DNA from: Schizochytrium sp. TIO01
Taxonomy: Eukaryota > Sar > Bigyra > Thraustochytrida > Thraustochytriidae
DNA: 64,000 bases
Assembly: GCA_004764695.1 (NCBI GenBank)
Contig: SMSO01000033.1
Span: forward strand, 573,001-637,000
Direction of reading: 5' to 3'
Positions 1,041 through 52,034 of this stretch are shown here, in pieces (the stretch's first letter is position 1; each line of letters begins with the position of its first letter). The notes under the pieces were generated by a model. The model saw nothing but the letters and a program-made list of their open reading frames with translations. It searched no databases and was not told the DNA's origin. Both the position numbers and the translations under genes were made by a program.

Positions 1041-3302
1041 TCATTGGTGACGTGGGCGTTTAGCGTTGTCCATGCGCTCTTCATCTTCTTCCATAGTTGT
1101 TGAAGCAAGGACACGCGGACCCATAATTCTTGCAGCGTGCTCGTCATCGTCATCTCTTCGATGGCTCATCAACTCAGCGCGAATATCATCTGCCGCACTA
1201 TCACGCGTGGGTTTAGGTCCGAATGACTCAGCTTTTGCGCTTGGTGGGAGATCAGGACGCTGGCTGGCCACTGGGTCCTTGCGAATTGTTCTCTCAGAAG
1301 GGCGAGAGTTGGTTCGAATATCTTTACGAAACATAGGCAACGCGTTTGGCAAGATGATATCTTCCTCTCGAATTTTGGGCGCCTCAGAAGAGGCATAGTA
1401 AGCACGTTTCGTGGAGGCACGCCGGTGACTACTCAGTAGTGCACCCTTTGATGAAAGCTCTTTGTCGAAAAGCACCACAGTAGCTCCATTACTGCAGCCG
1501 ATAAAGATTTGGTTCAATTTGTCGTGCCATTGCACAGATACAGGTTTAATCACCATGGAAGATTTTACATCCTCATCATCGTCAGCAACTACCTGATGAG
1601 CATCTTTTTCAGTCTCCTCAATAAATTCTTTTATGCTCAATCGCAATGGACGAGATTTAGGATGTTCCACAGGGAAAATCACGAGGTCACCAAACGTTGT
1701 CTCTCCTGTGATAACAAATTTCCCATTTGGACTAAAAGTTAAACCAGTGCTTGAGGAGTCATTCTCAAGCCGTTCCGATGCAGAAAAGATTTCCCGATAG
1801 TCTCCACGGCGCACAGAAGAGTCCCACAGTTTCAATGTACCGTCTTGGCTTCTTGATGCAAGTTTTTTGCCATCGGGTGAAAATTGAACGCAGGTGATTT
1901 CTTTATCTGGGCTATGCGCAGAACGTACAGTAATGTCTGGGCGAATGTATGCCGCACTTGGACTAACATTCCATATTTGTAAAGACCCGTCAGAGCAACC
2001 GGCCACAATTCGGTCTCCTGAGGGTGTCCAAGCACAGCTGTGTACAGCAACCCGGGTAGCCCTGGCGGTTTTAGTCTTAATAATGCGCAGAGACATAAGA
2101 TGAGAGTCCATGAGTGTACGCTGACTACGCTCAAGATCCCACATACGAACCGTTCCATCAATGCCACTTGTAATGAACATAGTATTGGAAACAGGGCTCC
2201 AGGCTCCGTCCGTGATCATAGATGGATGGCCTTTAGTTTTGGTCATGTCCATCAAGTAGGGATCTCCTTTGGTTGTCCGAGTTTGCTCTCTAGCATCGCG
2301 GTCATAGATCACTGCTACTGAGTCGGCTAGAATTACAAGAAAAAGTTTACCTGTAGGGCTAAAACTTAGCGCACGCACTACCTGGTCTTCTACAGGTCGT
2401 ATTTCTCGGAAGGGCTTGTTCGATTCGTTCATTCCACCGAAATCAAAAATCGAGATCTTGCAGTCATTGCCACCCACAGCAAATCTTGAGCCTGCACGGT
2501 CGATCCCGATGGCACATACAGATTTAGTTTGGGCGTTGATGCAGATGTGCTCGCTATGTGGAACACCTTGGAAGAGCTTGCCTGATGCTGCAAGCGGCTG
2601 AGGTCCTTCGCTGTCATCGTCATCTTCTTCGTCATTGATAATCGAATTGACGTTAGGTTCAGATAGAGACTCTTCTGCTGCAGCCGTTTGTTTGAGAGTC
2701 TTGTAAACTGGAGCAGACGTGCTCATTTCAAGTGCAAGGCGATTAATCTCAGCCTGGCGTTGTTCACGGGTCATGCTTTCCTCATTCATTCTGGCTTGAG
2801 AATTAGACATTGATGTTGATGTTGATGTAGAAGTGTCAGTATCTTTAGCTGAAATAGATTCGGACTTTTCATTCGCCACACTCTTAAGTTGATACAGTTT
2901 TTTACTCGTGCCAAAGCGCAGCACATCTTGGGGGCTTCTTAATGGTACTGGAACATTGGCCTCCAGACGCTCATCATTAATGAATGTGCCCTGGCTCGAG
3001 CCCAAGTCGATGACAACCAACTCCGACTTTCCTGCGTTTGTGAAAACCGGCACCAGAGCTGCATGGACCCTCGAGAGGCTTCCATGGTCCACAACAATAT
3101 CGCAGTTCTTCTCTTTCCGGCCTAGCACCACATATGGCTTCCCGTTGGACTCTGCTGGCCCATGCTTAGAGCCCGAAGCGACGGCCAGACCACCAATATC
3201 TAGTACCTCGCGAACTTCGGTCTTCTTGGGTTTCCGAACCTCTAACACAGCTCCAGACCAAACTCCGCTGGCATTGGCAGCCACTTGACTTGCGATCTCC
3301 AT
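1041..3302 (-). CDS. WDR70: FHA domain fused to WDR70/gastrulation-defective-type WD40 protein
   Basis: 753 residues from an ATG at 3302. Residues about 55-141 form an FHA domain: the GR of YVVLGRKEK (61-62), SRVH (77-80) and GTFIND (105-110) are the phosphothreonine-binding landmarks, and it looks NIPP1-like. Residues about 250-640 are WD40 repeats that follow human WDR70 order, including KGDPYLMDMTKTKGHPSMI, SGIDGTVRMWDLE and FSPDGKKLASRSQDGTLKLW. The C-terminal tail keeps the WDR70 signature ILPNALPMFRK and ends in a basic KRPRHQ segment that may be a nuclear signal. WDR70 is a nuclear protein tied to H2B ubiquitylation and DNA-break repair in fungi and animals. Animal WDR70 as I know it has no FHA domain, so this looks like a lineage-specific fusion that could add phosphopeptide recognition. 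Role is inferred from the family; the two domains are clear in one uninterrupted frame. Confidence 0.85.
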   Translation of the reverse strand: MEIASQVAANASGVWSGAVLEVRKPKKTEVREVLDIGGLAVASGSKHGPAESNGKPYVVLGRKEKNCDIVVDHGSLSRVHAALVPVFTNAGKSELVVIDLGSSQGTFINDERLEANVPVPLRSPQDVLRFGTSKKLYQLKSVANEKSESISAKDTDTSTSTSTSMSNSQARMNEESMTREQRQAEINRLALEMSTSAPVYKTLKQTAAAEESLSEPNVNSIINDEEDDDDSEGPQPLAASGKLFQGVPHSEHICINAQTKSVCAIGIDRAGSRFAVGGNDCKISIFDFGGMNESNKPFREIRPVEDQVVRALSFSPTGKLFLVILADSVAVIYDRDAREQTRTTKGDPYLMDMTKTKGHPSMITDGAWSPVSNTMFITSGIDGTVRMWDLERSQRTLMDSHLMSLRIIKTKTARATRVAVHSCAWTPSGDRIVAGCSDGSLQIWNVSPSAAYIRPDITVRSAHSPDKEITCVQFSPDGKKLASRSQDGTLKLWDSSVRRGDYREIFSASERLENDSSSTGLTFSPNGKFVITGETTFGDLVIFPVEHPKSRPLRLSIKEFIEETEKDAHQVVADDDEDVKSSMVIKPVSVQWHDKLNQIFIGCSNGATVVLFDKELSSKGALLSSHRRASTKRAYYASSEAPKIREEDIILPNALPMFRKDIRTNSRPSERTIRKDPVASQRPDLPPSAKAESFGPKPTRDSAADDIRAELMSHRRDDDDEHAARIMGPRVLASTTMEEDEERMDNAKRPRHQ

Positions 3303-7867: not shown

Positions 7868-10800
7868 ATGGGTACTATGAAAAAGCTTTTCTGTGCTCCC
7901 GGTAGCGGGGCATCTTTGTCTCGCAACAAGGTGGAGACTGCCCCTGCCCCTACCCCAGCTGTTATTGAGCCAGGTGCTGATGCTGCTGATGAAACCCCCG
8001 AGGTTGTCGAGGCCAACGTCGGGGCCCGTGCCAGTCTTCGCAAATCTCTTTCAAAGAAGATTGGCTTGGACAGCATCGGTGGCGGCGAGAACCCTGCCGG
8101 AGATCGCTCTTCCAAGCGACTCTCTTCTCGTCTTTCTGGCCGCGGATCTCTTCGTGCTGCGTCTACTGTGATGGCATTTCCGAACTTTGAAGAGACTGTG
8201 AACCACGCTATCAACGGCATTGTGGTCCTCAATATGACCTACGAGCGCCCGTACGAGGGTGGCGGACGCGGCTGTGGTGGAGCTACAGGCTTTGTTGTCG
8301 ACAAAAAGTTGGGAATCATCCTTACTAACCGCCACGTCGTAACTGGTGCGCCAATGCGCGCAGTCGCAACCTTTCAGAGCAAGGAAGAAGTTGAACTTAC
8401 TCCAATCTACTCTGACCCCATCCATGACTTTGGATTCTTTCGTTTTGACCCGTCTGAGGTCAAGTATCAAGAGCTCGTGGAAATCCCACTCGCCCCAGAA
8501 CGTGCCAAGATTGGCACTGACATTCGCGTCTGCGGTAACGACAACGGCGAAAAGCTGGCCATTCTCAGTGGTACACTAGCTCGTCTTGACCGCAACGCAC
8601 CCATGTATGGAGGCCCGTACTCTGATCATAACACATTTTACCTCTCGGCTGCCTCAAACACCTCCGGAGGATCGTCGGGCTCTCCCGTCCTCGACAGTGA
8701 TGGTTATGCTGTAGGCCTTAATGCTGGAGGTGCATTCTTTGCTGCCTCAAGCTTTTACCTCCCCCTAGACCGTGTTGTTCGCACCTTCAAGTACATCCAG
8801 AAGGGTGAACTTCCTCCGCGCCGAACGATCCAGACAATTTTTGTGCATCAGTCTTTCGTGGAGGTAGAACGCCTCGGTCTTCCAGATAAGGAGCAGGCAG
8901 CCTTCCGCAAGAGCTTCCCGAAGTCGTCTGGTTTACTCACAGTTGACGAAGTCATTCCAGAGAGTCAGGCAGAGGCTTTGGGGCTAAAGCCTGGAGATGT
9001 ACTCATTCGCATGAATGGGAAGCGGATTTGTGATTTTGTTTCCTTTGAGGAAATCATTGACTCTAGCGAGCAAGTCACGCTCAACCTGCGCCGTGGAACT
9101 GAGGACATTGAGGTCAACCTTGACACTGAGGACCTGCATACGATGATGGCCACTGATCTCCTGGAGATCTCCAATGGTGCTCTTCACACTCTTTCCTATA
9201 TGCAAGCTGTTGCATCCCACCGCGCTGTTGGTGGTGTTATTCTTGCGCAGACTGGCTACATGTTTGACCGAGCCATGGTCCCGAGTAACATTGTCATCAA
9301 GGCGGTTGGTGACCAGCCTACGCCAGATCTCGAATCCTTCGCTCGTGCCATGGATAAGCTTAATGACCTTGACAAGGTTAGTATCACTTTCACAAGTGTC
9401 ATGGACAAGCACCGCAAGCAGGTTCGACCAATCCAGATTGAACGCCGCTGGTTCCCCTGGGTTCGTCGTGAGCGTACCTTCGAGGAGGGAGCCTGGGAGT
9501 GGAAGGAGCGCGCCTGGATCACGGAAGACGGTATCGAGGATGATACACCTGCACCGAAAAAGAAGGTTGATAACGGACCTCGCAAGGTCCAAGTGCTTGA
9601 TGAGGAGGACCCTCGCCTCTGTGTAGTTACCTTTCAGGCACCCATCCCTATCTCTGAAGTCATGTCGAACTCCTACATTGGCTGCGGTGTAATCATCGAT
9701 ACGAAAGAGGGTCTAGTGATCTGTGACCGTAACACTGTTCCTTCCACACTTGGTAATGTTTCTGTGACAATTGCCGGCACTGTGGAACTTGAAGCGAAGG
9801 TATTGTTTGTGCACCCAATGCACAACCTTGCTTTAATTCAGTACGATTCCAACAAGGTTGAGGTTGAGCTTGGTGAGAGTGAGGCTGCCACCCGTGGTCT
9901 CGGACTCGAGGCCGCAGAGCCGTCCCCAGAGGAGCTCAAAAGCGGTTCGGTGACGAAGCTGGTTGGCTTTACTGGTCAGATGCAGCAGGTCTCGCAAAAG
10001 GTCACCGTTACGGTTGTAAAGCATGTTCAATCTGGCACTGCAAACATGGACAACATGGGTGATTTCTTCCTCTTCTTTGGTGGTGGTTCCAACTTCTCTG
10101 GCGGTGCCAAGAACCAAATTACTATTGAGATAGATAACAACAACCTCGACAACGTTGGTGGAGTTTTGCTTGACGACGAAGGCCGCGTTCAGGCATTCTG
10201 GTTCGATTTCTGGGGATACAAGATGGGTGTACCAGCGTCTATTGTCTACGACGCAGTTGCCCGCTTTCGGGCTGGAGAACCTCTTCGCAGTCTTGCCTGT
10301 GAGCTTGGCACCATCCCGCTTTCCAAGGCCGCCTCTGCGCTTGGTCTCACCGATGAGTGGGTGGCTGAGTTTAGCCAGAGCTCGAAGAACCGCCATGTTC
10401 TCTCCGTTTCGACTGTTATGATTGGCTCCAAGTCCGATGGTAAACTTGAGCCTGGTGACATCATTTTGGCTATTGATGACCAGCCTATGGTAGACTACCG
10501 TGCTGTGGAGCAGGCAACCGCTGACAAAGATCAGGTCACCGTGACTGTACTTCGTGACCTGGCTGAGGAGGCGATTACCATTGATACTACAGAGCTTCCT
10601 TATGACGGCTGTACTCGTGTGGTTCTTTGGGCTGGTGCTATTCTTCAATCTGCTCCGCTTGACCTTGCTTTCCGTGGATTCCTTCCTGAGGGTTCTCAGG
10701 GCAAGGGTGTCATGTGCTCAGGTTTATACGGTGGTTCCCCTGCAAACCAGTACGGTTTGCGTACACAGGTATTCGTGACTGCAATCAACGAATTTCCCAC

Positions 10801-10981
10801 TCCCGACCTTGATTCCTTCGCAGAGGCTGTGAAGGATCTCCCTGATGACGAGTTCATTCGTGTCCATACCATGACATTTGACGGGGTCCAAGATGTCACA
10901 CCTCTCAAGCTTGATAACCTTTACTGGGAAAAACGTGAGCTTAACTACGACGAGGATACTTACAGTTGGGAATACGTATAA
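7868..10981 (+). CDS. NMA111: NMA111/DEG7-type double trypsin-like protease with PDZ domains
   Basis: 1037 residues. The first protease domain (about 110-310) has an intact HtrA-type triad: His156 in TNRHVV, Asp187 in HDFGFFRFD, and Ser270 in the GGSSGSP motif. PDZ-like segments follow near 345-430 and 435-530. A second trypsin-like half (about 590-800) is degenerate: the position of the His motif reads DRNTV and the serine loop reads NVGGVLL, so it is probably structural. Two more PDZ-like segments follow at about 830-1010. This duplicated layout and length match fungal NMA111 and plant DEG7, which act in nuclear proteolysis/apoptosis and in chloroplast repair respectively. The first 105 residues are a Ser/Arg/Lys-rich extension with several SRKS/SSKR-like sites; its role is unknown. 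The start has a favourable aagATGG context. Confidence 0.9.
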   Translation: MGTMKKLFCAPGSGASLSRNKVETAPAPTPAVIEPGADAADETPEVVEANVGARASLRKSLSKKIGLDSIGGGENPAGDRSSKRLSSRLSGRGSLRAASTVMAFPNFEETVNHAINGIVVLNMTYERPYEGGGRGCGGATGFVVDKKLGIILTNRHVVTGAPMRAVATFQSKEEVELTPIYSDPIHDFGFFRFDPSEVKYQELVEIPLAPERAKIGTDIRVCGNDNGEKLAILSGTLARLDRNAPMYGGPYSDHNTFYLSAASNTSGGSSGSPVLDSDGYAVGLNAGGAFFAASSFYLPLDRVVRTFKYIQKGELPPRRTIQTIFVHQSFVEVERLGLPDKEQAAFRKSFPKSSGLLTVDEVIPESQAEALGLKPGDVLIRMNGKRICDFVSFEEIIDSSEQVTLNLRRGTEDIEVNLDTEDLHTMMATDLLEISNGALHTLSYMQAVASHRAVGGVILAQTGYMFDRAMVPSNIVIKAVGDQPTPDLESFARAMDKLNDLDKVSITFTSVMDKHRKQVRPIQIERRWFPWVRRERTFEEGAWEWKERAWITEDGIEDDTPAPKKKVDNGPRKVQVLDEEDPRLCVVTFQAPIPISEVMSNSYIGCGVIIDTKEGLVICDRNTVPSTLGNVSVTIAGTVELEAKVLFVHPMHNLALIQYDSNKVEVELGESEAATRGLGLEAAEPSPEELKSGSVTKLVGFTGQMQQVSQKVTVTVVKHVQSGTANMDNMGDFFLFFGGGSNFSGGAKNQITIEIDNNNLDNVGGVLLDDEGRVQAFWFDFWGYKMGVPASIVYDAVARFRAGEPLRSLACELGTIPLSKAASALGLTDEWVAEFSQSSKNRHVLSVSTVMIGSKSDGKLEPGDIILAIDDQPMVDYRAVEQATADKDQVTVTVLRDLAEEAITIDTTELPYDGCTRVVLWAGAILQSAPLDLAFRGFLPEGSQGKGVMCSGLYGGSPANQYGLRTQVFVTAINEFPTPDLDSFAEAVKDLPDDEFIRVHTMTFDGVQDVTPLKLDNLYWEKRELNYDEDTYSWEYV

Positions 10982-13013: not shown

Positions 13014-16000
13014 TTAAACAAGGGCGTCCTCTTCTAATTCCATCTTTGTGCAAAGAAAAGCAAGATATAAATCAGGCCCAGTGCAATTGCTATCACATGA
13101 AAGGTCTGAAGTGGTATCGATGCCAAAACATCGCTCTCTAAGAGTATCCCTTCGTGATGTAATTCGACCAATAGACATGGTCCATGTGTCATCAAGGCTT
13201 GCAACACCTGCATAACCTCCGAACATCCATAAGGTGTCTCCATGCACCGCGATTGCGGCACCAGTGCGTGGGACAGGTACTGAGTTCTGGTCTTCAAGAG
13301 TAATTACAGTTCTTGTGCCAGAATATACATCGAGCGAGCTAAGGGGTGCAGTATGAAATGAGTCAAACATCAAAATTCTACCCAAATTCAGCATGGGAAC
13401 TACTATCTCTGTGTCTCGAAATGCATCCATGCTGACTTCCCCGCGTTGATCCCAATTATTTGTTTGGATATTATATACCCACAGGTCATTGCGCAAACCT
13501 TCATTAGGGTCTTTGCCACCAAAAATGTAGATCGCCCCATTCAGCGCGAAGCTAGAATGACTATAGCGCGCAGGAGGACCACTAGTGATGTTTGTGAGGT
13601 TGGTCCAGCTTGGTTTGGGCTCACAAGGATGGATTTCTAACTCGAGTTGCCATGAAAGAATGCCCCCAGAAGTCAATTGGTCCATTTCTTCGTCTGCACT
13701 ATATATAGACCAACCCTCAGGATTGTACAAAACACCTTCGTACACAGATATTGGGGATGAAGGGCGGTAAGTTCCGCTTGTTTGAAACGCGAAAGCTTCT
13801 CGTAATGTTGAAGACGCATCATCATTTAAAGTGAGCTGCACTGTCTTATTGCTGTTAGGATTGCAGCTTGGGCGCGCGCTACTATCGCGATCAAAGACAA
13901 GTATACCAAGGGTATCATCCACGTTTCTAGCCTCGTATCCAGCCCCCCTGAGCCATATGCGAAGTGAATTCGGACATGGGTGATCGATGACCAAGGTAAG
14001 TTGTCTCACCCTGTTAATACATAAACTACCTGATTCCATGGAATCAATTAGAGAGCCCTCTGTTTCTACTCCTGGGGAGGGTAGTAATGCACCTTCCCGA
14101 AAATCTGCGAAATATACTGGAGAAGCGCTTTCTATTACCACATTGCTTGATTGCGTTGGATCATAAACATAAAAGCTGTTTAATGAGCTTCCCCTCCAAT
14201 CTTCACTCAACGAACTTTGAGACAGTGAGCTTTTGATTGTAAAGGAAGATATACGACCAGTTGTAGGATTGCGTGTAATACTAGGGGTTTCTCCCTGTTC
14301 ATTGGTCTGTGACACCTTTTCGAGATTTAAGCCGCCAAATATGTACAGGTAGTTGTTCCACTGCACGGCCGAGTGCAAGCCTCTACCTTCCGGTAGGGTG
14401 GTTTCTGAGAAACGGGTCTCGATTGTCCAAACCTTAGCATCCGGATCATAAACCCAAAGCTCATTAGACGAGCGTCGACCTTGAACACATTTTGCAGTTC
14501 GAGCTTCCCCTGGCAGCTCGCACGAAAAGCCATCGGTGTAACCTCCAAACAGGTAGATTCTGCCATTTTCGAGCCGAGTGGCACTGTGCCCGTGGCGAGG
14601 CATCCAACGCGCATTCTCGAGTGACATTTCAGATATGTCATCATTCGCTCGCCCACTGCCACTGGCAGGATCATCAGACCATGGTGTAGACAATAAGCGT
14701 GCATCGATATCACTACTAGTACGGAAGCGTGCTTCGATAGGCATGGCGAACGGTCGAAATGGAACACTAGACCATGCTGGGTATGGTGTTTCCTTAGTTC
14801 GTACCATTAAACTATTCCCAACCATTTCTGGGCCTTCTCGAGGTGATACTGCACGGATTCTTATGGAATAAAGGGTATCCGCTGTGAGTCCCTTGAGTAC
14901 TGTTTGGTTTACGTCATCAATATTCTTGATAACTTTGAAATCTTCGTTTCCAATACCAGTTGATGCCTCAATTAAATACCCTGCGCCACTTTGTTTGCTC
15001 CATTGCAAAGTAATACTAGAATGATTCTTGTCAGCTACCCATATTTTAGGGGCGATGTAGCCATACTCAACAGCCTCAGCTTGGTTTCTTGAAAGCATCA
15101 GATATGCCGAGTTTGCAAATGAGCTTCCTCCACCGCCACCAGCTCCTTCAACTCCACTGCCGCCTCCACCGCCGCCAAAGTACCCTCCTCCACCTCCACC
15201 TCCACCTTCAAATCCTCCTGCCCCATCGCCACCAAAGTTATGTCCTCCATTTGATGCAGACGTTGCCGGTGTTGCCAGAATTGAGGCAAGACTTCCACTT
15301 TGCCCTCCTTGTCCACCAAGAATGGTGGAACCTGCGAAACCAGGAACTGCAAGGATAGAATAGTCAGCAAGTGGAGCATGGCCTATATCTTTGTTATTGT
15401 GATCAGCAAAGAGTCTTGTGTTTGGGTCTACATCATCGAGGCCTAAAAGAACCAGGCTTGAGTCTGGCGTTGAGCCACTTTGATGCGCATCCCCACCATT
15501 TGCACAACAATAGTCTGAACCACCAGCGCCTCCACCTCCTGCGGCAGTGAGAATTGGTGTATCCATAGATGAGTGTAATAAAATGGAGCTTGCTCCACCT
15601 CCACCAGCACCATGTCGCAGAACACCTTTTCCGCCAGATCCACCTCCGTTCCAGCCGCCTTGGCCTTGTGACCCCCCAGCATGGCCACCGCCACCAACCC
15701 GCACGTGTAGTGCGCCAGTAAGAATTTGCTTTGATAATGTAGCTTGCAGAAATGCGCCAGCTCCGCCATGCGCTGTCTCTGGGCTCATACCAGTGCTACC
15801 TCCACCAGCGCCCCATAATTTTACCTCTAGAGAATCAATAAGCGGGTCATTTGGTATTTCATAGACTTCCGTTGAGCCTGTATAAAAGAAAAGCTTAGCA
15901 GGCCAAAAAGACTCTGCAATTCCACTTCCCTGTAATGAACGAGGGCGAATACTCACTAAGCCCGGTCCTCCTGCGAAACCATATTGTTCGCTTCCAATCC

Positions 16001-18029
16001 CCCCAGTGTTCAATCCACCGCCAACGCCAACGCCATTGACATACTGAGGGTCATCCGCATGTGGGGCACTTCCATTGACACCAATATCAAGAATAATATT
16101 GGCTAGCGCGCGAGATCGTGCGTCGAGTAGATCTAAGTTTGGTGGAGCATCAACAAGAGTTTCTGGAGACATTTCAGTCCGAATTGGACCTACAGGATCA
16201 GTCCATGATCCTGCACTCTGCCTTCCAGAATCAGTATCAATGTGAATTTCGCGCATTCGGAAAGCGTACCATGTGTATGGTTTTAGGCCGTTCACTGTAG
16301 CATTAAGGTACTCAGACTGGGGTGCATAACGTGGTAATATACCATTTTTAATGGTTGAAACTGCCACAGGGCCACCAGGGCCAGACCAATAGCCATCAGA
16401 GTCTCGAGATATGCTTTCAGAGATGACAACAAGCGGTGGTTGATCCCCTTGATGATATATTGAGTTAAAGACAATGGTGTATGTATATCCATGTTCTGTA
16501 GTCCGAGAGCTCCGTGTGACAGATTTCGCGGTAATGCCAAGACCAGACAATGCAGTGCGTAGTGCTGAAGCAGATATATCGTACGGGAGTGCAGAAGTTG
16601 GAGACCGAGTGTCTCGAAAAGCAAGTGTAAAAGAACCCCCGTTTATTACACCTGAGCCGGGATCAATTCGAGTAGTAATAGTTTGGACTTCTGCTTGGCC
16701 AGCATAGTATGGCGGCTGACCTTCCATGTTGACATAAGACCAGAGGCTATTATCTCCATCGAGAAATTCGGTAGACCTTCGACCATCTTTCAATTCTCGT
16801 GCTTGCATTTGAAACTCCAAAACTCGGTCGTGGTTTTGCGCCCAAGTTACAAGGATGCTTTCTGGACCACTGGGATTAACACTTAGCTCAATGTCACTGC
16901 GAGATTTCTCTGCAGTATGAATTGTCTTCGTTGTGGTATGTGTTGCATCTTGACCTGGAACTAATGCTCGGACTAAGTAATCAGTATCAGCTTCTAAATT
17001 ACCAGCAACGAAGTCCGAGGAATCTCCAGATGTTGCACGAGGAAGAGTTTGCCAGACCCCAGCGCTCATCTGAATTTGTATTTTTGCCCCCTCAGGAGCA
17101 CCTTGTAGTTGAACCCGAAAATAGTCTTCGGCAATACTTATGACCTGAATATTACTAGCAGTTGCGAGTTTTCGCCCCCCCGGGATCGATATTGTTCGAG
17201 ACGGATTAGAGTAGTGTGACCATACCAAAGTCCCGCGAAGGTCGCGAACCAGTGCTCGTACACGATACAAGTAGACTTTGTAAGGCTCAACAGAAGAATC
17301 ATCGAAGAAGCATTTGTCCTTGTAGGGATCGCGTTTATCTGGGTTGTTCAAGCAGGCAAATGACGATGTTCGACCAGGACGAATTTCAGAAACCCCAACC
17401 GTGCGAATTTGGCTTCCAAGAAAGCTCGCATCTAGCGTGCTTGCGACAACTTGTAAGGCTGGATAAGCTTCGCCTGCGTCCATGAAGGTAACTGTCCATT
17501 GATAGCCGCCTTGAGCGTCTGGTCCAGAGCGTTTTACCTGAACACTTTCGATATTACCAAGACTTTCGAGTGCATTCACGATCTCTCCTTCTGAAGCACT
17601 ATAACTGATCCATGGCGTTGTAGATGGGCTTTCAGGATCTGCATCGAAGAGTCCATCCTTCTGCATCGAGAGGCGGAAGAATCCCGATGTAATTGATTGT
17701 CCCTCATCTGCACGAGTCTCAATTAGCTGGACCTCCCTTGGCTTTGCTTCATTGGTTGCCATAACTCGCCCAACCTCGGCCCATGATGAGCCTAATTCTG
17801 CCCTTTCTACAGCAAAACCTTCACCGTTAAAAATAGATTCTTCTGATGCCAGCCAATGGACTTTCACAATCTTCTTGTTCTCAGCCAACTCAGTGGTTGA
17901 AGATGTTGACAAATCTACCTCAATGTCCATGAGAGCCTCAGCGAGCCGCATATTCCACGAAAAGGCTAGCATCGCTGCTATCAAGACGCGCAACGCGAGT
18001 CCCATCCCGCCGCATCTGGGCCTCGCCAT
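13014..18029 (-). CDS. Large secreted protein: FN3-like, ALK/LTK-type glycine-rich, and kelch domains
   Basis: 1671 residues from ATG 18029 (the frame is open slightly further but only through a TTG). The N-terminus is a likely signal peptide (GLALRVLIAAMLAFSW). Two copies of a roughly 85-residue beta module with a TRSGPDxxGGYTWTVTF-like core occur near 85-200 and 455-560, the kind common in stramenopile surface proteins. FN3-like segments lie around them and near 1000-1090. Residues about 736-975 form a glycine-rich domain with VKLWGAGGG, LTAAGGGGAGG and long Gly runs (GGGGGGGGYFGGGGGG), resembling the ALK/LTK glycine-rich domain. Kelch motifs (HSATRLENGRIYLFGGY, YLYIFGG, IYIFGGK, LWMFGGY) lie at about 1140-1240 and 1490-1613, split by a proprotein-convertase P-domain-like stretch (about 1316-1456, LTLVIDHPCPNSLRIWL). 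Probably a cell-surface or matrix protein; function unknown. No membrane anchor is in this frame. Confidence 0.85.
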   Translation of the reverse strand: MARPRCGGMGLALRVLIAAMLAFSWNMRLAEALMDIEVDLSTSSTTELAENKKIVKVHWLASEESIFNGEGFAVERAELGSSWAEVGRVMATNEAKPREVQLIETRADEGQSITSGFFRLSMQKDGLFDADPESPSTTPWISYSASEGEIVNALESLGNIESVQVKRSGPDAQGGYQWTVTFMDAGEAYPALQVVASTLDASFLGSQIRTVGVSEIRPGRTSSFACLNNPDKRDPYKDKCFFDDSSVEPYKVYLYRVRALVRDLRGTLVWSHYSNPSRTISIPGGRKLATASNIQVISIAEDYFRVQLQGAPEGAKIQIQMSAGVWQTLPRATSGDSSDFVAGNLEADTDYLVRALVPGQDATHTTTKTIHTAEKSRSDIELSVNPSGPESILVTWAQNHDRVLEFQMQARELKDGRRSTEFLDGDNSLWSYVNMEGQPPYYAGQAEVQTITTRIDPGSGVINGGSFTLAFRDTRSPTSALPYDISASALRTALSGLGITAKSVTRSSRTTEHGYTYTIVFNSIYHQGDQPPLVVISESISRDSDGYWSGPGGPVAVSTIKNGILPRYAPQSEYLNATVNGLKPYTWYAFRMREIHIDTDSGRQSAGSWTDPVGPIRTEMSPETLVDAPPNLDLLDARSRALANIILDIGVNGSAPHADDPQYVNGVGVGGGLNTGGIGSEQYGFAGGPGLVSIRPRSLQGSGIAESFWPAKLFFYTGSTEVYEIPNDPLIDSLEVKLWGAGGGSTGMSPETAHGGAGAFLQATLSKQILTGALHVRVGGGGHAGGSQGQGGWNGGGSGGKGVLRHGAGGGGASSILLHSSMDTPILTAAGGGGAGGSDYCCANGGDAHQSGSTPDSSLVLLGLDDVDPNTRLFADHNNKDIGHAPLADYSILAVPGFAGSTILGGQGGQSGSLASILATPATSASNGGHNFGGDGAGGFEGGGGGGGGYFGGGGGGSGVEGAGGGGGSSFANSAYLMLSRNQAEAVEYGYIAPKIWVADKNHSSITLQWSKQSGAGYLIEASTGIGNEDFKVIKNIDDVNQTVLKGLTADTLYSIRIRAVSPREGPEMVGNSLMVRTKETPYPAWSSVPFRPFAMPIEARFRTSSDIDARLLSTPWSDDPASGSGRANDDISEMSLENARWMPRHGHSATRLENGRIYLFGGYTDGFSCELPGEARTAKCVQGRRSSNELWVYDPDAKVWTIETRFSETTLPEGRGLHSAVQWNNYLYIFGGLNLEKVSQTNEQGETPSITRNPTTGRISSFTIKSSLSQSSLSEDWRGSSLNSFYVYDPTQSSNVVIESASPVYFADFREGALLPSPGVETEGSLIDSMESGSLCINRVRQLTLVIDHPCPNSLRIWLRGAGYEARNVDDTLGILVFDRDSSARPSCNPNSNKTVQLTLNDDASSTLREAFAFQTSGTYRPSSPISVYEGVLYNPEGWSIYSADEEMDQLTSGGILSWQLELEIHPCEPKPSWTNLTNITSGPPARYSHSSFALNGAIYIFGGKDPNEGLRNDLWVYNIQTNNWDQRGEVSMDAFRDTEIVVPMLNLGRILMFDSFHTAPLSSLDVYSGTRTVITLEDQNSVPVPRTGAAIAVHGDTLWMFGGYAGVASLDDTWTMSIGRITSRRDTLRERCFGIDTTSDLSCDSNCTGPDLYLAFLCTKMELEEDALV

Positions 18030-18556
18030 GGCGGGCAATAACGAGCAGCCAGAAACCTTGGTGTTTCTAGTACCAGGATATTGTCCACAGCACAGCTCTT
18101 CAAAATTTAGTCGCCTCGGTATCCTGAGGCGAGATCCCGCACAGCCTCAAGCCCTGGCGATGTCAAATTGGGTTCGTGTTTTTGTTCAACTTCAAGTTCT
18201 GATTTCAAAACTTAAAGTCAACGGAAGCATAATAGGTTTCGATATTCCCCTAATCATAATAGTCTAGTGCTAGGCAGTACTAGTACGGATACTACTTATG
18301 GGCTCTGCGCAACCCTTCTTAACATGTGCGCAACGCATTCTGATCAGCTCATTGCTAGCTCTCTCCTCTAAGACTTATATAGAGCTTGAGATACAAGTAC
18401 ATTAGAGCTATTCTAAGGGCATAAATAGTGTATTAGTACGCTGAGTTTGCATGTGTGGATGTTTGTTTAGTTATTTGGCACGGGGAATGTAAATCAGAGT
18501 CACTATCGTGGAAGCGAAGTAGATTGCTAACAAGGTGGGATTCGAGAGTGGCAACG
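18030..18556. promoter_or_regulatory. Divergent promoter interval
   Basis: 527 bases between the start codons of the secreted kelch protein (minus) and the FDXACB1-like gene (plus). Both promoters and 5' leaders must fall here. I could not identify a specific element. Confidence 0.4.
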
Positions 18557-46610: not shown

Positions 46611-49600
46611 ATGGATGATAACGACGCTCTCACACCAGAAACCAAGCCATCTGACCCTGCCAGCTCGCGGAAACGTCAGCGTCCCGGCGAAAGCTATGCT
46701 TCAACTTCGCCGTCTTCGGCCGATACAGTAGCCGAAGCATTTGGGAAGCCACATGTGGCCAGGCGCCACGAGCTTGGTTACGGCACCCCTGCCCTGGACC
46801 CTTATACTAGCATTCCAGAAGACGAGGACGATGAAACTGACGCCACTAATGCATCATCACATTTGCCAGGAGACTCAAATCGAGGCCAGCCGCAAAGCCT
46901 GGCAGAAGCAGAGCCCGTAGAACATGCACGAAGGCTTTACGAGAGCGTTCAAGGAGAGGATATTTTGGTACTTGAGGAGGTGCTCTCGACGTTGGACTCT
47001 TGTAAGCAGGTTTACGACCTTGAACATGTCGAATGGCTTATCACCTTGTGCCGGCGTGGAGAAGACCAACGCTTAGAAAGGATCCAGGAGGAAGCTATGC
47101 GACTTGTTGATGGGTGGGCGCGTAACTTACAAACATATATTCCTGCCGATGGTGTTCCAGTTCCAGACCCTCTGCGCGACGAGCTAATCGATAGTGCAGT
47201 CACGTTCTTGGAGGACGAACAAGTCAAAGATAGATCTGTCGATGAAAAGGTACAATTCTTGTTAGATAAAGGCTTGAATCGAACTGAAATTCGGATTGCG
47301 TGTGCTCAGGTTGGTGTGGAACCACCTAGCTCATTGCTATATTCGGAACCACTGCGCCATGAAATGGTAAAGAACGGTGCATCATTTTTAACAATTGATG
47401 ATGTGAAGGACAAACCTCTAGCGGAAAAACTGTCTTTTCTCAAATCCAAGGGCTTAGCCGATGGTGAGATCATGCGCGCCTGCGAACTTGCACGTCTGGA
47501 TCCGCTTCCTACACCTGAGGACTTGAAAGGCCTTCATGAATACCAGGAGCGCGCACCTCGTGAAGATATGGTTAAAAATGGCGCCATTTTCCTCAATCAC
47601 AAGTCAATGGCTTCAAAAACATTGCGTGAGAAGCTTGAATTCCTTAAAACTAAAGGTATGACTGCGACCGAAGTAGCCAAGGCATGCGAACGAGCAAAAG
47701 TGGATCTCCCTAGTGATCTTCGGAAAGAGTTCGCTGCTTCCACAACGACTACCACAGAAGGAGGTCGTGGCACCGGTGGTGGTAGCGACGGCTCCAAGGT
47801 AAATGAGGCGTCATCTGGCAATGCAAAATCTGGTAGATCGTCTGCTGAAGATGGCACCCCAGAGTCAGTTCGTAGTGAGATGGTTCAAAAAGGTGTTACA
47901 TTTTTGTCCCATCCTTCAGTTGTAAGCAAGCCTGTTGTCGAAAAGCTCGCATTCCTTCGGGAAAAATCTTTGACCGAAGCTGAAATCAAGCAGGCTTGCA
48001 AAGAAACGAACGTGGCATATATTGCTGGAACCGTTGGACTCTCGCAGGAGAATGTAAGAAAGGCAGTTGCATTTCTGCGTCATCCGAGTGCTCAGGGTCG
48101 TCCTTTACAGGAAAAAATAAGTTATCTTCGCTCAAAAGGCCTCTCTACAGAGGAAATTGAAGCAGCCTGTCGTCAAGTTGGTGTCCGATCAGCTGGTATT
48201 GGCATGTCCTATACCAATGCTGAATTAAACGAACCCTTTGAGGACGTCTCGGAGGAAGATGATCGTGACTCCTCTTCTAAAACTCCCAAGACACTTACAA
48301 ATGAAGAGGTAGAATCAATGCGACGTGTGCGACAAGGCCAACGCTTTCTGCTTCATGAAAAGACTCAAAAACTTGAGAATCGAGACAAAGTAAGCTTTTT
48401 GCTTGGAAAAGGCCTCTCCTTAGACGAAATTGAATCCTGTTTCGCGGTGGTTGGCCTGCCATGGGACGAAGAAGAAATGAAATCTGTGAAGCCCGAAGAT
48501 CAGTCTAAAGCGCGCATGGAGCGGGCTGAGCGATTTCTAGAAGATCAGCGAGAAAAGGTTCCTGAAGACGAAACATTTGATGCACAAAAACAGGCTCTGT
48601 TTCTTTGTCAACAAGGAATCCCCGAAAAGGAGCTTTCAAGAGTCTTTGAAAAGCTAGGCTTAGAATTGGATACCTCAAAACTTGATGAAGACATGGTTAA
48701 TATCGGTCGAACATTTGCTCAGAAGGCTGGCACGGGAGCAAAAGCTCGGAATTTCTTACAGAAAGAGAAGAATCTCTCTGAAGATCAAATTAATCGTGCC
48801 TTTCAAGGTCTCGAGAATAATCCAGTTGAGCTTGCTCGCCGGTTCCTTACAAGCTCTCAGGCTGCAAGAGAACCTCTTGCTGAACGCATCAACTACTTAC
48901 GGCAGCATCAAAATCTTTCAGATGAGCACATCCGTGAAGCCTTACAGCTAGCTGGTCTTGAAGCAACTGAACAAGACTTTCAAGATCCTGCAACTGTCGA
49001 TCCGCTCGTTGCACAAGGAGCAACGTTTTTGTCAAGTGCTGCTGCCGCCGCAGCGAGTCTGTCCCAAAAGAAAGAATTTTTGAGTAGCAAGGGTCTGTCG
49101 AAGTCTCAGATCATGGCCGCATTTCAACGTGCCGGACTTGACCCGGAAAAGGAGACTGTTCCAAGGCCTGAGGCAGATCCGTTAGTAATTCAAGGCCGTG
49201 CTTTTCTGACAAGTCCCAAAACTGCGTCTGTTTCTCTGGCAGAAAGGGCGGCTTTCCTGCGCTCAAAAGGGCTTTCTGAAGAACAGATCAAATCTGCGTT
49301 TGAGCTGTCGAATCAGGTTTTGCCATCTCAAGCTGAAGTTGAGTCTGCAAGCATTAAATCTGCACGATCACCTACGTCTAGCTCCGAGCCCTCATCTTCT
49401 AAAACATCAGAATTGGCATCCTCGGGGGATGCGCTTGTAGACCAAGGCGCTCGCTTTTTATTAAATGAACAGGCTGCTGCAGCGAGCGTCGCGGAGCGCA
49501 AATCCTTTTTGCGCAGCAAAGGACTAAGCGAAGATCAAATCCATCAAGCTTTCAAACATGCAGGTGTTAGCGAGAGCTCAATTCGAAAAGAAATGGTCGA

Positions 49601-52034
49601 TCGTGGTACTCGTTTCCTGAAAGACCCGAATACCGCAGATACACCGATCGAAGATCGTATTGAGTTTTTGAAGCAACAAGGGTTGACTGAAGACGAGGTA
49701 CTCCAAGCTGCTGTTCAAGCAAAAGTTAGTTTAGTTCCATCACATTTGTGCACGATTCCTTCTAAGCAACTTCGAGAGGATAGCAACAAGGAGTCTCTCG
49801 ACACAGAACCCTCTGGTCGTGCTTTGCAACATGCTATGAACGCCATGGTCTCTCTTTTGCCAACAGTAAAGATTCGTGCAACACCAAGTGGAAGATTTGG
49901 ATCTCGGGTTCTCATGCTCCTGGCTACTTGTTTATGTCGCAGTCGACCAGCAAGAGTGCCTGCAGCTTGTATTGCCTTTAGTTCTTTGAGCATGTCCAAG
50001 GGCCTACGAAATCATGAGGCTGCTGACATAGACCTCGCCGTTGAGTCAGATGTACAAGCTTTTCTCGAGGCTTGCGTTGAGCTTGCCGCTCGTGCTGCGC
50101 AAATAAATACTTATGCAAAAGAAGGGTTGGATCAGATGCAGCAAGTGAATTTGCATTTTATTTCTTGCGGAGATGTCGTTGGTTCTGTTCTTCGTTTTTG
50201 GCGGTCAAATTCCGCTGCGGATGTAAACGTAGATACTGGCATGATTCTTGCTCGCGCTGTTCATGGTCATTTCAGTCCCGCGGCTGCGTATCAGCCTATG
50301 AAGAGTGCAACAGAGCCAGCAATTGAAAAGGTTCTTGAGCATATGTCAACAGAGCGGCGTGGTCTTGCCCCTGTTGCTGCAGCATTCTTTGCTGCTGGCC
50401 TTTTAAGAGGCGCTCCCGACTATGCATGGGCTAACGATGTCGAGCGCAGCCCCCAACCCCGCGTTGAAGCTGGCTTTCGGCAACTTGCGCGGAAGTCTGC
50501 CAAACTTGAAGACAAGGTTGTGTCTTCCGGTTTAGGCTGCGCTATTGTGTATGCTGACACGCAGGTGTCCTGGAGTAACGCAATGACCTGGGCTGTAGCC
50601 GAATGTCTTTTTAACGAGGCACTGGGTGGTTTCTTTTTAGCATCAGGCTGTGCATCTCTTGAGGCCCGCTCGAACGCTTCTCGACGTTTCAACGAAAGAG
50701 AGATTTTTAAACTTGCGCCACAGTTGGTATCTTTGATTGTGAGCAAGCTTTCAAGCTCTCAGGCAACTTGGGCCACTCGTCGCCTTCATAAGTTTGCTGT
50801 GCATGTTCATCGTATATGTCGTGATGATGCAGAGCTCACGGGCGTTTTGGCACGCCGCACCACGTTAGCTCTCTACGGAACTGGAGAAGTGTCTACTTCA
50901 GAAGAAAATAACGTTGAGCAAGCTACGCCAGTCGACCTCGGGATCCATGCAGAGCTCGCCCGCCTTTTGCAAATGGGATATTTGACGACAATAGTAATTG
51001 GCGCAAAGACGGTGCCTCTAACTTCTGATTGGGTTCTTGTTTGGGATGCTATGGCAAACTTAAATGCATTTCAAGTGCGAGTCCAAGACACAGTAGATCT
51101 CGAAGATCTACTTAAACGTATGCTACACATGGAGGAAGAGCGTGGCGTAGGCGTACTTCTTGGACTCTTGGGAATCGGCGAGGATGACGATGGCACAGAT
51201 ATGAACGACTTCGGTGTAGCAGACCCTCGTGCTAAGGGAATGCGCCATGATGATCCAAGAAAACAGCTATATGACTGGGTCTTAGCAGGTCGCTTGGAGT
51301 TTTTACTGGACACTGGCGAAGAGTGGTTACATGATAAGCTCCCAGAAAGTGCAGCATTGGCTACACTTCTACTCGATGTAGCTGTGGCTCATCCATTTGT
51401 GCATCTCAACATGCGTGCGCATCGCTGGATTACGGATATGCTTCGAAACTATGCATCTGGTCAGTCAGAGGTAAAAGCGGACCCTCTCGGGCCGCCGCCT
51501 TTGCCTCTTGCAATTATTCCATCGTATGTTGACGCATCAATTGAGGCTCATCCCCACGCTACAGCTACACGGACTTTATCCTTTGCAATCGGTTCAACGC
51601 TAACTGCTTTGTCGAACCAACATGAAGAGCGTGCCCAACCCTTAGCTCTAATGACTCTCGAACGGCTGATGTTAGCACTTGATGATCGTATTGCAGGACG
51701 ACCGGAATTCAAGCAAGACGGGGCCATACTGGCCAAAATTCTTTTTTCTTCTTTGAAGGCAACGGCTTGGCCAATTTTCCCTATGGCTGTTGACGAGGTT
51801 GTCGACGTTATTGAGCGGGCGCCACTTACACTTTCGCAAGACCATTCAGAAGAGGTTAGTCTCTCTGATGAAAAGGATAGTGAGACACCACCCGATGGAT
51901 CGTCGCGTATTTCACGTAAGGAACTTGTAGAGCTTATGTTCAACGCTATCCAGACGACAGACGACCAACCCCGCCGCATGTATCTTGCCAAGGCATACCT
52001 TAAGCTTGTGCAATCATCAACGTGCAGGCTGTAA
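46611..52034 (+). CDS. Giant protein with 13 tandem PEX14-N-like modules and a helical C-terminal half
   Basis: 1807 residues in one exon with a clean CACCATGG start. The N-terminus is disordered and acidic, with a basic KRQRPG patch. Residues about 105-175 are a helical segment resembling TFIIS-N/LEDGF-type bundles (LEEVLSTLDS ... WLITLCRRG). Residues 187-1040 hold thirteen roughly 50-residue modules of the PEX14 N-terminal type. Each has a G/A-x-x-FL helix start, a variable loop, then K-x-x-FL-x-x-KGL-(S/T)-x-x-(E/Q)-I-x-x-A. Two low-complexity linkers (about 370-418 and 905-935) divide the array. Residues about 1070-1800 are alpha-helical without recognised motifs; there is no transmembrane segment, unlike true PEX14. 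PEX14-N binds WxxxF/Y motifs of PEX5 and PEX19 in peroxisomal import, so this may be a multivalent short-linear-motif receptor. Function unknown. Confidence 0.85.
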   Translation: MDDNDALTPETKPSDPASSRKRQRPGESYASTSPSSADTVAEAFGKPHVARRHELGYGTPALDPYTSIPEDEDDETDATNASSHLPGDSNRGQPQSLAEAEPVEHARRLYESVQGEDILVLEEVLSTLDSCKQVYDLEHVEWLITLCRRGEDQRLERIQEEAMRLVDGWARNLQTYIPADGVPVPDPLRDELIDSAVTFLEDEQVKDRSVDEKVQFLLDKGLNRTEIRIACAQVGVEPPSSLLYSEPLRHEMVKNGASFLTIDDVKDKPLAEKLSFLKSKGLADGEIMRACELARLDPLPTPEDLKGLHEYQERAPREDMVKNGAIFLNHKSMASKTLREKLEFLKTKGMTATEVAKACERAKVDLPSDLRKEFAASTTTTTEGGRGTGGGSDGSKVNEASSGNAKSGRSSAEDGTPESVRSEMVQKGVTFLSHPSVVSKPVVEKLAFLREKSLTEAEIKQACKETNVAYIAGTVGLSQENVRKAVAFLRHPSAQGRPLQEKISYLRSKGLSTEEIEAACRQVGVRSAGIGMSYTNAELNEPFEDVSEEDDRDSSSKTPKTLTNEEVESMRRVRQGQRFLLHEKTQKLENRDKVSFLLGKGLSLDEIESCFAVVGLPWDEEEMKSVKPEDQSKARMERAERFLEDQREKVPEDETFDAQKQALFLCQQGIPEKELSRVFEKLGLELDTSKLDEDMVNIGRTFAQKAGTGAKARNFLQKEKNLSEDQINRAFQGLENNPVELARRFLTSSQAAREPLAERINYLRQHQNLSDEHIREALQLAGLEATEQDFQDPATVDPLVAQGATFLSSAAAAAASLSQKKEFLSSKGLSKSQIMAAFQRAGLDPEKETVPRPEADPLVIQGRAFLTSPKTASVSLAERAAFLRSKGLSEEQIKSAFELSNQVLPSQAEVESASIKSARSPTSSSEPSSSKTSELASSGDALVDQGARFLLNEQAAAASVAERKSFLRSKGLSEDQIHQAFKHAGVSESSIRKEMVDRGTRFLKDPNTADTPIEDRIEFLKQQGLTEDEVLQAAVQAKVSLVPSHLCTIPSKQLREDSNKESLDTEPSGRALQHAMNAMVSLLPTVKIRATPSGRFGSRVLMLLATCLCRSRPARVPAACIAFSSLSMSKGLRNHEAADIDLAVESDVQAFLEACVELAARAAQINTYAKEGLDQMQQVNLHFISCGDVVGSVLRFWRSNSAADVNVDTGMILARAVHGHFSPAAAYQPMKSATEPAIEKVLEHMSTERRGLAPVAAAFFAAGLLRGAPDYAWANDVERSPQPRVEAGFRQLARKSAKLEDKVVSSGLGCAIVYADTQVSWSNAMTWAVAECLFNEALGGFFLASGCASLEARSNASRRFNEREIFKLAPQLVSLIVSKLSSSQATWATRRLHKFAVHVHRICRDDAELTGVLARRTTLALYGTGEVSTSEENNVEQATPVDLGIHAELARLLQMGYLTTIVIGAKTVPLTSDWVLVWDAMANLNAFQVRVQDTVDLEDLLKRMLHMEEERGVGVLLGLLGIGEDDDGTDMNDFGVADPRAKGMRHDDPRKQLYDWVLAGRLEFLLDTGEEWLHDKLPESAALATLLLDVAVAHPFVHLNMRAHRWITDMLRNYASGQSEVKADPLGPPPLPLAIIPSYVDASIEAHPHATATRTLSFAIGSTLTALSNQHEERAQPLALMTLERLMLALDDRIAGRPEFKQDGAILAKILFSSLKATAWPIFPMAVDEVVDVIERAPLTLSQDHSEEVSLSDEKDSETPPDGSSRISRKELVELMFNAIQTTDDQPRRMYLAKAYLKLVQSSTCRL
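47169..49730 (+). repeat. Array of 13 PEX14-N-like domain repeats within the gene
   Basis: Modules start at residues about 187, 246, 316, 419, 478, 566, 631, 692, 738, 796, 855, 939 and 990. Every module keeps both aromatic positions that form the ligand pocket in PEX14 (the F of xFL in the first helix, and F or Y of x(F/Y)L in the third). Most keep the following K-G-L. Modules 7 and 8 are the most diverged. The last modules (10-12) are nearest to each other (FLRSKGLSE in 11 and 12), suggesting recent duplication. Confidence 0.8.

Follow-up and report, generated by a model that had tools for sequence, protein, structure and literature searches.

A Schizochytrium protein with about thirteen tandem PEX14 N-terminal domains and a consensus PTS1 end: a possible soluble hub for the import receptor PEX5

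The hub gene and its surroundings

The window analyzed here is a 64,000-nucleotide stretch of the genome of Schizochytrium sp. TIO01. It contains a single open frame, with an ATG start and zero internal stops as read from the window sequence, which encodes a large protein referred to here as the hub. The main features of the hub outside its array of PEX14-type modules are:

46611..52034, + strand: hub coding frame, a single open frame of 1,807 aa plus stop
46668..46682, + strand: basic patch RKRQR, residues 20-24, a possible nuclear signal, from the translation
46908..47144, + strand: N-terminal helical region, residues about 100-178, four predicted helices, perhaps HEAT-like (model pLDDT about 60)
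49788..52022, + strand: C-terminal half, residues 1060-1804, predicted all helical, perhaps an alpha-solenoid (low-confidence model, pLDDT 41)
52023..52031, + strand: C-terminal tripeptide CRL, a consensus PTS1, from the translation

The N-terminal helical region gave HEAT-like structural matches with Z up to 9, a value within noise for helical models. A TFIIS-N/LEDGF-like domain, suggested by eye for this region, found no support; the model here has pLDDT about 60. Pfam search of the C-terminal half returned no family, and search of the PDB sequences returned no meaningful match. The single-sequence model of this half is nearly all helical and poor (pLDDT 41), and the HEAT-type solenoids among its Foldseek matches (importin beta, CRM1 and CAND1; best E 1.6e-3) can therefore be taken as a hint only.

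When the hub protein was compared with its own genome, the matches were itself and the PEX14 module, with no others; paralogues of its N- or C-terminal parts were not found there. No relative of the whole hub was confirmed among viral contigs. The neighboring genes in the window include a kinesin, a GST, a CCDC34-like protein and a Ctr transporter, and none of the neighbors shows a peroxisomal link. The window also encodes a 1,037-aa HtrA/Nma111-like protein in which a trypsin-like domain is accompanied by several PDZ domains (7868-10981, + strand), a 1,674-aa protein combining a glycine-rich ALK/LTK-type region with fibronectin III and Kelch repeats (13014-18038, - strand), and a protein in which an FHA domain (residues 58-131) is joined to WD40 repeats (1041-3302, - strand).

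The module array

The hub matches the Pfam family PF04695 (Pex14_N) with E 3e-96 and 315 bits in 11 separate stretches, each of which individually exceeds the curated cut-off of 23.2 bits in a profile search of the organism's own genome. Only one other place in the 64 Mb genome matches this family. A custom profile combining the 11 hub stretches with the PEX14 of the same genome picks out exactly 13 places in the hub, within residues 188-1045:

47172..47336, + strand: PEX14-N module 1, residues 188-242 (profile, predicted structure)
47352..47513, + strand: PEX14-N module 2, residues 248-301 (profile, predicted structure)
47559..47717, + strand: PEX14-N module 3, residues 317-369 (profile)
47868..48029, + strand: PEX14-N module 4, residues 420-473 (profile)
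48039..48197, + strand: PEX14-N module 5, residues 477-529 (profile)
48315..48479, + strand: PEX14-N module 6, residues 569-623 (profile)
48501..48677, + strand: weak module 7, residues about 631-689, with an insertion between helices 1 and 2 (8.5 bits)
48681..48809, + strand: altered module 8, residues 691-733, with a shortened helix 1-2 loop (26.9 bits)
48813..48977, + strand: PEX14-N module 9, residues 735-789 (profile)
48996..49157, + strand: PEX14-N module 10, residues 796-849 (profile)
49173..49334, + strand: PEX14-N module 11, residues 855-908 (profile)
49428..49583, + strand: PEX14-N module 12, residues 940-991 (profile)
49581..49745, + strand: PEX14-N module 13, residues 991-1045 (profile)

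With the custom profile, modules 1-6 and 9-13 each reach 65-79 bits, and with leave-one-out profiles they still reach 38.8-72.7 bits. By the leave-one-out measure module 8 scores 26.9 bits, a score reached by 0 of 5,000 shuffles, and module 7 scores 8.5 bits, reached by 8 of 5,000. The array consists of eleven clear modules, one that is real and shortened (module 8) and one that is weak and doubtful (module 7). An earlier note on this DNA had placed thirteen tandem modules at 47169-49730; the count is confirmed, with a span of 47172-49745 and with two members (7 and 8) that are degenerate.

Pairwise identity between modules is 13-48%, and no DNA-level tandem repeat was found in the array. Recent tandem duplication of the DNA is thus rejected, and the array is taken to be old, since no such repeat remains. 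Module 4 is nearest to the single-domain PEX14 of this genome (41%). The position equivalent to human F67 is Cys in modules 1-5 and Phe in modules 6-8 and 10-12, a pattern suggesting that local duplication occurred more than once. Support in the module tree is low and no conclusion is drawn from it. The hub is an extra PEX14 paralogue, because the only other Pex14_N gene of the genome is an ordinary single-domain PEX14. The Pex14_N domain itself is already known; its arrangement as an array is undescribed in the papers searched, though unnamed orthologues may still sit in databases.

Fold and pocket of the modules

The hub modules are PEX14 N-terminal domains by profile, by fold and by pocket residues. 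All 12 PDB sequences that match the hub with E better than 0.1 are PEX14, and module 12 is the best match to the human protein. The structure predicted for modules 1 and 2 has block pLDDT values mostly of 75-91, and superimposes on the crystal structure of the PEX14 N-domain (6zfw) as the same three-helix fold, with Z 11.5 and an rmsd of 1.6 Å over 66 residues. The high-probability Foldseek matches of the predicted modules are all PEX14. The PEX14-N identity proposed in the earlier note is therefore upheld by the PF04695 profile, by sequence and by structure; assignment to another helical fold, which the note had named as what would overturn it, was not obtained, as profile and structure both give PEX14.

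The aromatic residues F35 and F52 determine the shape of the surface on which PEX14 binds peptides. Alignment of the modules with human and T. cruzi PEX14 shows that the equivalent of human F35 is F in 13/13 modules, that of F52 is F or Y in 13/13, and that of K56 is K or Q in 13/13. The two aromatic positions, recognized from the outset as kept in all thirteen modules, are also more constrained than any other position of the module, core positions included. Positions 31, 34, 38, 41 and 48 near the pocket are variable, so the pockets may differ in preference. Modules 7 and 8 may not bind, because the loop joining helices 1 and 2 carries an insertion in module 7 and is partly missing in module 8.

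The C-terminal tripeptide

The hub ends in ...KLVQSSTCRL, and CRL fits the PTS1 consensus [SAC][KRH][LM]. The chance of a PTS1-consensus end is 0.37% for proteins of the hub's composition; the match was noticed after the fact and is therefore a lead, not proof. Mammalian malate dehydrogenase 1x (MDH1x) enters peroxisomes via CRL, which is less efficient in this protein than SRL (PMC5133446). The PTS1 route is in use in this organism, since one acyl-CoA oxidase and the malate synthase of the genome both end in SKL; no CRL end was seen among the few enzymes sampled in this genome. The CRL end favors a peroxisomal location, probably in the matrix, over a nuclear one.

Peroxin genes elsewhere in the genome

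The hub co-occurs with a single-domain PEX14, a PEX5 and three Pex2/Pex12-family genes. The canonical PEX14 (contig C3:1577220-1577351 and downstream) has one Pex14_N domain followed by a hydrophobic transmembrane segment, and its frame spans 545 aa, counted from the first in-frame Met up to where the stretch read ends. PEX5 lies on the minus strand at contig C30:5035500-5040500, and its TPR part is 58% identical to a fragment of the human TPR region used as query. Pfam PEX13_N gave no match in the genome, which divergence or introns may explain and which does not imply absence. The genome also carries genes matching the omega-3 PUFA synthase PfaA, in keeping with a thraustochytrid.

The readable N-terminal exons of PEX5 contain 11 tryptophan-centered motifs. 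Only one (WINDF) is a strict WxxxF/Y, and most of the others are Wxx(E/Q)x, which suggests a relaxed W motif in this lineage. The idea of a multivalent hub for WxxxF/Y-like peptides is compatible with the conserved pocket residues and with the 11 W motifs of this PEX5, although just 1/11 is strict.

A proposed role in receptor handling

Under normal conditions the N-domain of PEX14 is lumenal (PMC12925559; PMC9795577). In a proposed model, avid binding of the W motifs of PEX5 by PEX14 N-domains retains the receptor and gives import its direction (PMC9795577). Our tentative preference, held with somewhat less than even confidence, is that the hub is a PEX14 paralogue that is imported by its PTS1 into the peroxisome matrix, where it traps PEX5 by avidity and holds it or hands it on. 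The PEX14 N-terminal domain would have been amplified into about thirteen copies, with the large helical C-terminal half attached to them. PEX5 itself would most likely carry the hub into the matrix via the PTS1-type tripeptide. Once inside, the module array could bind the many W motifs of PEX5 by avidity and pull the receptor off the import pore, and the hub might then hold PEX5 or pass it to the export ligase Pex2/10/12. The C-terminal half may also have a role in this handling. By analogy, such a hub would combine the lumenal avidity of PEX14 with receptor handling of the Pex8 kind.

Several observations tell against a matrix hub. The CRL match is post hoc, CRL was weaker than SRL in one direct comparison, and it is unseen on the few enzymes sampled; only 1/11 of the PEX5 W motifs is a strict WxxxF/Y; and the protein has both borderline hydrophobic stretches in its C-terminal half, a possible link to a membrane, and the N-terminal basic patch, which leaves room for a nuclear role. 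A further difficulty is that newly made hub meets PEX5 in the cytosol, where it could occupy the docking motifs and jam import unless it is regulated or its assembly is ordered.

Alternatively, the hub might be cytosolic or peripherally peroxisomal, clustering cargo-loaded PEX5 before docking or buffering free PEX5, with a CRL end that is due to chance or masked. This accords with modules that adjoin no membrane segment and with the multivalency of both the modules and the PEX5 W motifs; moreover, PEX13 condensates formed in vitro take up the N-domain of human PEX14 along with PEX5 (PMC11024197). However, a PTS1-type end arises by chance in only about 0.4% of cases for such a composition, and a cytosolic sink that uses the same pocket would compete with PEX14. 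We regard a hub of this kind as unlikely.

The basic patch had raised the idea of a nuclear role. The patch is there, but the CRL end points to the peroxisome instead. In a broader form of this idea, the PEX14-N fold has been reused away from peroxisomes in a scaffold, nuclear or cytosolic, whose ligands are other peptides of the W or F type, and the variable near-pocket positions (31, 34, 38, 41 and 48) could then reflect other ligands. Such reuse is rather improbable, as the pocket aromatics and the basic or polar K56 position are kept in every module, the C-terminus is a consensus PTS1, and the papers searched give no non-peroxisomal Pex14_N protein.

The hub had also been described as having no membrane anchor. 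This holds for the array, as no hydrophobic segment of the PEX14 transmembrane kind lies beside or between the modules, but it is less certain for the C-terminal half, where borderline stretches equal the PEX14 transmembrane segment in hydrophobicity on two simple scales. Residues 1706-1724 have a Wimley-White octanol sum of -4.1, and residues 1581-1599 have a mean hydropathy of 1.64; the PEX14 of this genome gives -3.0 and 1.32, respectively, for its transmembrane segment. These values would suit a second PEX14-type docking protein anchored through its C-terminal half, with the array facing the lumen or the cytosol. However, charged residues occur in both segments, and the region that holds them is predicted to be entirely helical, as a soluble solenoid would be; such a solenoid therefore seems likelier than a membrane anchor. 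Nor are the segments adjacent to the modules. An anchored docking protein is accordingly given little credence. Least probable is a helical spacer or rod whose modules retain the fold and have lost binding: modules 7 and 8 are indeed degenerate, but in the array as a whole the two pocket aromatics are constrained above every core position.

Comparison with known peroxins

With PEX14 the hub shares the N-terminal domain profile, the three-helix fold and the pocket residues F35, F52 and K56. PEX14 has one such domain, whereas the hub has about thirteen, together with a large helical C-terminal half, a CRL end and no transmembrane segment beside the domains. The hub as a whole is not a PEX14, because the layout of one Pex14_N domain followed by a transmembrane segment is not found in it. 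Fungal PEX33 is likewise a paralogue of PEX14 that coexists with it in one genome, but it is assigned to the membrane docking complex, and no domain array is described there (PMC8172628).

Fungal Pex8 is a soluble, PTS1-bearing HEAT-repeat protein of the matrix; it binds PEX5 and directs the receptor to the Pex2-10-12 ligase (PMC13015374). It has a mass of 65 kDa, is described only as a HEAT-repeat solenoid and does not generally occur outside fungi (PMC13015374). The features of the hub that might correspond are the CRL end, which fits the PTS1 consensus and works in mammals, and a C-terminal half predicted all helical, whose best Foldseek matches are HEAT proteins (model pLDDT 41). The comparison concerns only how the proteins would work; the C-terminal half of the hub has no Pfam or PDB sequence match. 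The matrix reading can be sharpened into a non-fungal, soluble peroxin of the matrix that has not been described before, in which an array of PEX14 N-domains, carried on a helical solenoid and tagged with a PTS1, would act as a lumenal ratchet that pulls PEX5 in by avidity and hands it to the export ligase. In this specific form the proposal is doubtful.

Implications

A hub that couples a repeated PEX14 N-domain to a matrix-type tag would be a natural experiment on the PEX5-avidity model of import (PMC9795577). If the matrix reading is true, it would suggest that soluble receptor factors of the matrix, until now represented by fungal Pex8, have a counterpart in a non-fungal lineage. Should the proposed location prove wrong, the array would still show that the PEX14 N-terminal domain can be used as a multivalent peptide-binding module away from its membrane anchor.
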